Origin: Anaerococcus ihuae
Lineage (GTDB): Bacteria; Bacillota; Clostridia; Tissierellales; Peptoniphilaceae
Length of the DNA: 64,000 bases
Direction of reading: 5' to 3'
Assembly: GCF_928368155.1 (NCBI RefSeq)
Contig: NZ_CAKMRU010000002.1
Coordinates: 248,001 to 312,000, forward strand
A program made the position numbers and the translations under genes. This document shows, one piece after another, positions 31,955 to 37,620 of the stretch (its first letter is position 1; each line of letters opens with the position of its first letter). The notes under the pieces are model-generated. The model made no database searches and was not told the DNA's origin. It saw only the letters and a program-made list of their open reading frames with translations.

Positions 31955-33433
31955 TTAATCTCTCTTAAAAATATCTCTAGTATAAACTTTATCTATTACA
32001 TCATCCAAGCAGTTGTTATATCTATTTGCAATAATTGCTTGGCTCATTTTTTTGAATTTTTTTAAGTTATTTACAACTTCAGATCCAAAAAAAGTATCAC
32101 CATCTTTTAATGTTGGTTCATATATTATTACTTTTGCACCCTTTGCTTTGATTCTTTTCATAACACCTTGGATTGAAGATTGTCGGAAGTTATCAGAATT
32201 TGACTTCATTGTAAGTCTGTAAACTCCAATCACGCATTCTTTTTCATTTTCTGGTTGATATTGATCAATACTATTATAATCATAATATCCAGCTATATTT
32301 AAAACTTGATCAGCAATAAAATCCTTTCTAGTCCTATTAGAATCAACAATAGCAGAAATCATATTTTGAGGAACCTTATCAAAATTTGCAAGAAGTTGTT
32401 TGGTATCTTTTGGAAGACAATAGCCACCATAACCAAAAGAAGGGTTGTTGTAATGAGAACCAATTCTTGGATCAAGACAAACACCATTGATAATCTCTTC
32501 AGTATTTAAATCTTTGCTTTCAGCATAAGTATCAAGCTCATTAAAATAAGAAACCCTAAGAGCAAGATAAGTATTAGCAAAAAGTTTTACAGCCTCAGCC
32601 TCAGTAAATCCCATAAACAAAGTATCAATATCTTCCTTAATAGCACCCTCTTGTAAAAGATGAGCAAAAATTTCAGCCTTATCACGACTTTCATCATCAC
32701 AAGAAACAATAATTCTAGAAGGATAAAGATTATCATATAAGGCCTTAGATTCCCTCAAAAATTCAGGAGAAAAAATGATATTTTTAGTATTATATTTCTC
32801 CCTAATAGATTTAGTATAACCAACAGGAATAGTAGACTTAATAATCATAGTAGCAGAAGGATTAACTCTTAAAACCAATTCAATAACAGATTCAACAGCA
32901 GAACAATCAAAAAAGTTCTTCTTAGAATCATAATTAGTAGGAGCAGCAATAACAACAAAATCAGCATCCCTATAAGCAGCCTCACCATCAAGAGTAGCAG
33001 TCAAATCAAGATCTTTTTCCTCAAGATATTTTTCAATATATTCATCTTGGATAGGAGATTTTCTATCATTAATCAAATCAACCTTCTCATTAATAATATC
33101 AACAGCAGTGACATGGTTGTGTTGAGACAACAAAGTAGCAATAGAAAGCCCAACATAGCCCGTACCAGCAACAGCAATATTATATTTCTTATCCAAAAAA
33201 TCCTTCCTAACTTCCCTTTTCTCCTCAACAAACAAATCAACAACATCAAAATCCAAAACCTCACCAAGCTTTTGAAGTTGATCAATAGAAGGAGTGTAGT
33301 CGAGGGATTCAAGACGACTAATCATAGTCCTGTTAATACCAGTAAGATCAGCAAGCTTAGTTTGAGTAATATTTTTTTCTTTTCTTTTATCAGCAACAGT
33401 CTTAGCCATTTTTTCAATAGATAATTTTTTCAT
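31955..33433 (-). CDS. UDP-glucose 6-dehydrogenase with an N-terminal XRE DNA-binding domain
   Basis: A 492-residue fusion. Residues 1-67 are an XRE/Cro-CI helix-turn-helix ([19 protein letters not shown]...[23 protein letters not shown]). Residues from about 85 on are a complete nucleotide-sugar dehydrogenase: NAD loop [11 protein letters not shown] (GTGYVG 90-95), [15 protein letters not shown], Lys283 in [14 protein letters not shown] and catalytic Cys339 in [10 protein letters not shown]. The enzyme part alone is about 410 residues, the normal length. It oxidises UDP-glucose to UDP-glucuronate, although a related UDP-hexose is possible. The ATG at 33433 follows GGAG by six bases and the HTH is in frame with no stop, so this is a true fusion. 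A dyad at its -35 box suggests self-regulation. Confidence 0.93.
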
Positions 33434-33469
33434 ACATTCTCCATTTTCTTTTTTATAAATTGTATAATA

Positions 33470-33510
33470 ATATTATCAATTTTATCTTGTTATGTCAATT
33501 TAAATAACAA
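33470..33510 (-). promoter_or_regulatory. Promoter of the HTH-dehydrogenase gene with an overlapping dyad operator
   Basis: On the minus strand a perfect -35 TTGACA (33498-33493) and -10 TAATAT (33475-33470) are 17 bases apart. A perfect inverted repeat TTGTTAT (33487-33493) / ATAACAA (33504-33510) with a 10-base spacer straddles the -35 box: the spacer contains most of it and the arms flank it. A protein bound here would block RNA polymerase. The XRE domain of the gene's own product is the obvious candidate. Confidence 0.7.
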
Positions 33511-33702
33511 ATAATTTAATTATGCCATAAAATGAGATAAAAAAGATATTTATAATAACATAGGTTCTCTCTAGTTCATTTCTATTATATTAATACTGGA
33601 TAAATATATTGATATTAAGTCGAAATTATTATAAACTATAGAGTAGCGAGATTTTATAATAAGAATTATAATATTTTCATATATATTTTAAGGAGACGTT
33701 GA

Positions 33703-37407: not shown

Positions 37408-37611
37408 ATGGAAGTGGAAATTGAAAATAAAATTAGGGAATTTAGGAAAGAAAAGGGGCTTTCTCAGCATAAACTTGCTAAAATGGTTGGACTTAAAAGA
37501 AGGTCGATTATGGCTTATGAAAATAACACCATAAGTCCAAGTCTTGAAACTGCCTACAAAATTTGCAAGGTTTTGGACAAGGATATTAAAGAGGTTTTTA
37601 TTTTTAAATAA
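37408..37611 (+). CDS. Small XRE/Cro-CI-type regulator
   Basis: A 67-residue protein that is essentially a single helix-turn-helix domain (IREFRKEKGLSQHKLAKMVGLKRRSIMAYENNTISPSLETAYKICKVLDKDIKEVF). It resembles short stand-alone regulators usually encoded with a membrane or effector partner. The ribosome binding site is AAAGG. Direct repeats ATGTAAC/ATGTACT just upstream suggest autoregulation, and the next gene starts nine bases after its stop, so the two are a likely regulatory pair. Confidence 0.85.
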   Translation: MEVEIENKIREFRKEKGLSQHKLAKMVGLKRRSIMAYENNTISPSLETAYKICKVLDKDIKEVFIFK

Positions 37612-37620
37612 GGAGAGGAA

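Follow-up and report, generated by a model that had tools for sequence, protein, structure and literature searches.

Capsules and other surface polymers draw on UDP-glucuronate, and control of UDP-glucose dehydrogenases (Ugds) is usually ascribed to allostery and to separate regulators. In Anaerococcus ihuae, a single reading frame joins an XRE-type helix-turn-helix (HTH) to a Ugd, which raises the question of what a DNA-binding head does on this enzyme. The frame lies in a window of 64,000 nucleotides (the whole stretch of DNA that was analysed; contig NZ_CAKMRU010000002.1, positions 248,001 to 312,000), and coordinates given below for this locus are those of the window. According to the original prediction, the protein may be a trigger enzyme that senses UDP-glucose, UDP-glucuronate or NADH and converts this into transcriptional control of the surface-polymer genes on both sides. 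The gene and its parts are as follows:

31955..33433, minus strand: HTH-Ugd fusion gene of 492 amino acids, with its stop codon at 31955-31957
33439..33442, minus strand: ribosome-binding site GGAG, 5 bases before the ATG of the fusion gene
33233..33433, minus strand: XRE-type HTH domain, residues 1-67 (Pfam HTH_3 at 15-65; predicted fold)
33182..33232, minus strand: variable linker, residues 68-84 (low conservation, relaxed dN/dS in most pairs, pLDDT 55 at residues 71-80)
31958..33181, minus strand: complete UDP-glucose dehydrogenase, residues 85-492 (Pfam, NCBIfam and structure alignment)
33149..33166, minus strand: NAD loop GTGYVG, residues 90-95 (sequence and family conservation)
32585..32587, minus strand: codon of Lys283 (Lys204 of 1dli by alignment; invariant in 43 of 44 fused rows)
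32417..32419, minus strand: codon of catalytic Cys339 (Cys260 of 1dli by alignment; invariant in 43 of 44 fused rows)

The prediction that one frame encodes both an XRE HTH and a complete Ugd was confirmed by four Pfam domains above their cut-offs, namely HTH_3 at residues 15-65 (43.8 bits against a cut-off of 23) and the UDPG_MGDP_dh_N (85-251), central (278-367) and C-terminal (403-479) dehydrogenase domains. Among NCBIfam models, the protein exceeds the cut-off of TIGR03026 for nucleotide sugar dehydrogenases (299.6 bits against 189.8) and covers the whole profile of the UDP-glucose 6-dehydrogenase equivalog NF011631 (PRK15057), with 565.8 bits, below the curated cut-off of 757. The NAD loop, Lys283 and Cys339 are intact where they had been predicted. 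In the alignment to 1dli, which we take to be the Streptococcus pyogenes Ugd, Lys283, Asn287, Cys339 and Asp343 correspond to residues 204, 208, 260 and 264, and Thr201, Glu224 and Glu228 to residues 118, 141 and 145, all of which are presumably catalytic in 1dli. The seven positions are invariant in 43 of 44 fused rows, the remaining one (L107) being cut by a contig end. An AF2 model built from 29 sequences (mean pLDDT 74.5, pTM 0.61) has pLDDT 85-97 over residues 1-70, which hold the HTH, 55 at residues 71-80 and poor values around the catalytic core; a Foldseek search with the fusion's AlphaFold model ranked Ugds first, but with a TM score of 0.46. In four of the 44 fused rows, among them the window but none of the other 10 Anaerococcus rows, an in-frame start codon behind a Shine-Dalgarno-like tetramer lies no more than 25 codons ahead of the NAD motif. 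Because the window has such a tetramer and an internal TTG (at residue 80, behind AGGAAGGA, 33180-33210), a second, HTH-less Ugd product is possible in this strain.

Could the HTH be a sporadic gene-model artefact, as the original prediction had allowed? The distribution of the fusion refutes this. It was found in 11 of the 31 genomes of the genus, its own included, at full length in 10 (G003 twice) and cut by a contig end in G017; the nine further full-length carriers have fusions at 81-93% identity. A Ugd match (E up to 1e-30) was present in 28 of the 31, with an unfused Ugd alone in 17 and both forms in G004 and G010, and no Ugd other than the fusion was detected in the A. ihuae genome itself (94% complete). 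Searches of wider taxa used a strict threshold, by which distant fusions could be missed. Beyond the genus, neither 130 family genomes nor 249 order genomes yielded a full-length fusion; in the class, 5 of 391 sampled genomes had one, counting the own genome, which was also the only carrier among 398 sampled genomes of the phylum. A scan of GTDB contigs with an HTH-plus-linker profile, which favours fusions because its search patterns were derived from the fused family, returned 44 loci, of which 43 are fusions (two cut by contig ends). Ten of the loci belong to Anaerococcus; among the other Firmicutes with the fusion are Lachnospiraceae, Clostridiaceae, Coprobacillaceae (Kandleria), Oscillospiraceae and Mogibacterium, as well as Streptococcus suis with four records. 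By these comparisons, HTH-Ugd is a real and old architecture with a patchy distribution. On a tree of 88 Ugd domains, to which close unfused relatives had been added and in which bootstrap support is unsettled (L071, L073, L107 and L150 dropped), the fused label changes nine times within one Ugd clade, at least three of the changes being forced by supported branches; an earlier tree of 78 rows had four changes. The pattern may reflect one gain with losses, several gains, or exchange. Close free-standing relatives are more numerous than fusions in the class sample, and the HTH is therefore dispensable. No HTH homologue at E up to 1 was found in the fetched stretches around unfused loci, which are short, and thus no split HTH/Ugd pair. 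In L122 (5001-7738), a fused Ugd stands directly before a second, unfused Ugd, to which the window's protein is 61% identical.

Where it is present, the HTH is under purifying selection, as judged from dN/dS. Across 13 close pairs of fusions, dN/dS ranged over 0.00-0.35 in the HTH, where the pair at 0.00 has saturated dS, and did not exceed 0.10 in the dehydrogenase. Values for the linker spanned 0.00-1.73, leaving aside two pairs in which the linker value is undefined. Base identities indicate that within the genus the HTH and the dehydrogenase have had separate histories: the window shares 97% of HTH bases with A. jeddahensis but only 69% with A. vaginalis, while the dehydrogenase parts are about equally alike in both comparisons. 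A. jeddahensis carries two fused genes (L070 and L071) about 21 kb apart that are 99-100% identical from the HTH to the end and have upstream regions only 47-68% identical, as if gene conversion kept the coding parts alike.

Many fused genes have a 17-bp palindrome, TGTTATTTnAAATAACA, in their upstream region, often in two copies. The best site of each upstream region was compared with 300 dinucleotide shuffles (p up to 0.05; L099 dropped for having too little upstream sequence). In this comparison, which is not blind because the palindrome was first spotted in Anaerococcus and its symmetric consensus was written after other loci had also been viewed, the palindrome beat the shuffles at every one of the 10 Anaerococcus loci, at 15 of the 32 remaining fused loci and upstream of both stand-alone HTHs; of 20 distant unfused Ugds of the genus and family, one had it. 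Close unfused Ugds (66-81% identity), taken as a control, had it in 1 of 32 cases (L150), and fused loci fetched after the consensus had been set in one of four (L161, two sites 116 bp apart). A consensus-free test for two alike palindromes in 200 bp was passed by 15 of 32 fused loci, about four of them (e.g., L082, L088 and L112) with pairs that are not of the operator type, and by 0 of 20 unfused loci; it was also passed by 0 of 11 Anaerococcus loci, because there the overlap with the -35 hexamer spoils the symmetry. Each palindrome test was failed by 17 of the 32 non-Anaerococcus fused loci, including all four from S. suis. Kandleria vitulina has two perfect sites upstream of its fused gene, and many non-Anaerococcus fused loci have one site 30-45 bp before the start codon. 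At the window's promoter the elements are:

33493..33509, minus strand: proximal operator-like site TGTTATTTAAATTGACA, with 14 of 16 matches to the symmetric consensus, its right end being the -35 hexamer
33544..33560, minus strand: distal, weaker operator-like site TGTTATTATAAATATCT, with 13 of 16 matches, 51 bp from the proximal site
33470..33498, minus strand: promoter-like TTGACA - 17 - TAATAT with TG before the second hexamer, 10 of 12 matches

The promoter is the best of eight promoter-like matches in the region (shuffles average 4.9 matches). The two operator-like sites are among six palindrome matches with up to three mismatches in the window, and the proximal one has an exact counterpart in three further upstream regions of the genus. 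Nine of the 10 other Anaerococcus loci have their two sites 50-52 bp apart when sites of at least 11/16, about the shuffle mean, are counted; the distal site is weak in some species, at 11/16 and thus close to that mean. Ten representative spacings (51 to 139 bp), picked post hoc, cluster at the 10.5-bp period (R 0.71, p ~0.004).

The operator also appears to vary with the part of the HTH that would read it. In the recognition helix, which from the XRE fold we take to span about residues 33-42, position 39 is Ser in 35 of 47 fused rows and Gly in 10, with 2 not classed. Class A sites (at least 13/16) occur in 25 of 35 Ser39 rows versus 2 of 10 Gly39 rows. A second palindrome, TTCTGTTTnAAACAGAA, is present in five Gly39 rows, from which its consensus was itself read, and in 0 of 35 Ser39 rows; eight of the ten Gly rows form one clade. 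That operator type tracks the recognition helix is suggestive only, and the S. suis loci fit neither operator class.

Of 25 listed loci (26 had been selected and L111 was dropped; three end at a contig end), seven have an epimerase-like gene of about 361 amino acids no more than about 30 bp downstream of the fusion; the window has no such gene. The seven followers are 78-100% identical to the first, and the three that were checked with Pfam matched NAD-dependent epimerase. Every NCBIfam model scored below its cut-off for this gene, and its nearest solved structure is named dTDP-glucose 4,6-dehydratase; UDP-glucuronate 4-epimerase would be a guess from context. In L138 / L017 (G020), a Ugd of the same genus, 76% identical and without HTH or operator, lies directly after an epimerase-like gene. 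The window has a further XRE-like HTH stretch at 37426-37617, which contains an in-frame TAA and is 33% identical to the HTH of the fusion.

The core of the original prediction, the trigger enzyme, is supported because the palindrome lies at the gene's own promoter and is largely absent upstream of unfused Ugds, the HTH is under purifying selection and the catalytic residues are conserved. We consider it fairly likely that the fusion is a self-repressing trigger enzyme for the supply of UDP-glucuronate, tied to a metabolite. Its dehydrogenase part would make UDP-glucuronate, and its XRE domain would repress the gene by occupying the paired 17-bp operators at the promoter, so that the enzyme probably controls its own production directly. 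Protein on the proximal operator, covering the -35 box, would block RNA polymerase; because of this overlap, repression is, given binding, considerably more plausible than activation in Anaerococcus. Sites near whole helical turns apart would let two dimers sit on the same side of the helix, and the oligomeric dehydrogenase would hold the two operator-bound dimers together, although looping at the paired operators falls slightly short of an even chance. Binding of a nucleotide sugar or NAD(H) to the dehydrogenase domain would change operator occupancy and thereby tie enzyme supply to UDP-glucuronate demand. We rate such coupling of DNA binding to a metabolite as evenly balanced, and infer that it would be the natural reason for an HTH on a Ugd. 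More tentatively, the catalytic domain may double as metabolite sensor and as the clamp by which the repressor loops DNA: its oligomer would hold two helically phased operators at its own promoter, and the promoter-proximal HTH would be an exchangeable module, swapped between species independently of the enzyme, whose operator specificity shifts with its recognition helix. The anatomy, as read from sequence, fits an autoregulated enzyme, with a repressor head and operators at its own -35, with Ugds that lack the head largely lacking the operator too, and without sites spread more widely. That the fusion is the only Ugd detected in its genome, and that an epimerase-like gene follows it in some loci, also speak for the trigger enzyme; the fused loci that fail the palindrome tests, the operator-like site of one unfused relative (L150) and the dispensability of the HTH speak against it.

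The surface-polymer targets of the original prediction did not hold up in the same way. That the fusion regulates the flanking polymer loci, the divergent wzz-kinase operon and beyond, is suggested by its position: in the window it closes a polymer locus (Wzz, CpsB, LytR, sugar transferase, Wzy and others), and in the window, L070 and L083 the divergent neighbour is a Wzz gene, the shared intergenic region in the window being 269 bp. However, the best site overlaps the -35 of the fusion itself, the start of the divergent wzz is some 140-210 bp away from the two sites, the nearer of which ends 142 bp before it, and no site better than 13/16 occurs in the window outside the fusion promoter. Several relatives' fusions are not beside polymer genes on the side tested; neighbours elsewhere are JetA in Kandleria, a MerR-methyltransferase in L081, a nucleotidyltransferase-like gene, and transposases in two S. 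suis records. Autoregulation is therefore supported and control of neighbouring polymer genes is not, since sites elsewhere are near background; the fusion may still act on the divergent wzz gene, but we hold regulation of these loci to be improbable. Across the genome, a scan with an 18-base form and up to three mismatches hit 15 places versus 16 for the reversed pattern, and the palindrome with up to two mismatches hit 13 versus 7 for the control, a modest excess. The 13 include the gene's own site; ten of the others were examined, of which seven are inside genes and three between, one of these 591 bp before a GlgC-like gene. A genome-wide regulon was considered and is unsupported rather than disproved, with sites elsewhere at or near background.

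Operator-like sites at the gene's own promoter would also be expected if the HTH simply repressed that promoter as the protein accumulates, with no metabolite signal and the dehydrogenase acting as dimerisation partner or passenger. The linker, variable and poorly ordered in the model, offers no visible conserved route for an allosteric signal, which also favours such concentration feedback. Nevertheless, this leaves unexplained why a Ugd in particular gained and kept a DNA-binding head, and Ugds change shape upon ligand binding; we regard it as an unlikely alternative. A third reading makes the HTH a relic or passenger from a mobile regulator that is now only tolerated; the palindromes would then be remnants, or would serve a different regulator. 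The patchy distribution, with its repeated label changes on the Ugd tree, would agree with this, as would the nearest stand-alone HTHs (L100 and L114), which precede IrrE-like genes, one of them in a prophage-like contig, and have similar sites upstream. However, all 13 pairs show purifying selection on their HTH, the operator differs where the recognition helix does, and unfused relatives lack the sites, which makes a relic very improbable.

If the fusion is indeed a self-repressing trigger enzyme, an enzyme that reads its own promoter would form a one-protein feedback loop, and sugar-nucleotide metabolism would become one of the few pathways governed by enzymes that bind DNA. For the coupling of catalysis and DNA binding, the family would offer a defined candidate site, a further operator type and, as natural controls, Ugds without the HTH.

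Full-text literature searches listed no title on an HTH-Ugd protein, and known systems resemble only parts of it. The closest solved structures, Klebsiella Ugd (3phl) and 1dli, are about 58-60% identical to residues 85-492 in a structure-based alignment; unlike the fusion, these Ugds are free-standing and have no DNA-binding domain. The XRE/Cro-C1 repressors SinR (1b0n) and C.BclI (2b5a) share the HTH_3 fold, with weak sequence similarity to residues 7-85, but their effector or dimerisation part is not an enzyme. The stand-alone HTHs L100 and L114 are 49-51% identical over the HTH and have a similar palindrome upstream in both cases; however, these are proteins of 116-118 amino acids without a dehydrogenase, and the next gene is IrrE-like (Peptidase_M78). 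At L114 (5001-6910 and 7317-8093, viral contig) and L100 (5661-7600), the HTH is followed by the IrrE-like gene and then by a gene without a Pfam match, and the L114 set has phage-like genes on one side and, on the other, a Ugd fragment without its first 234 residues. BirA and PutA are trigger enzymes with a DNA-binding domain; the DNA-binding fold of PutA is a ribbon-helix-helix, unlike the HTH of the fusion. Each of the two is a single chain that is both a metabolic enzyme and a repressor of the operon of its own pathway (PMC6978683). The fusion resembles them as an enzyme that carries a DNA-binding domain in one chain and would likewise repress and sense, but it differs in its enzyme and in its ligands, which are unrelated. 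Set beside these systems, an HTH-Ugd fusion with an operator-like palindrome at its own promoter, as recognised from sequence, is new here.
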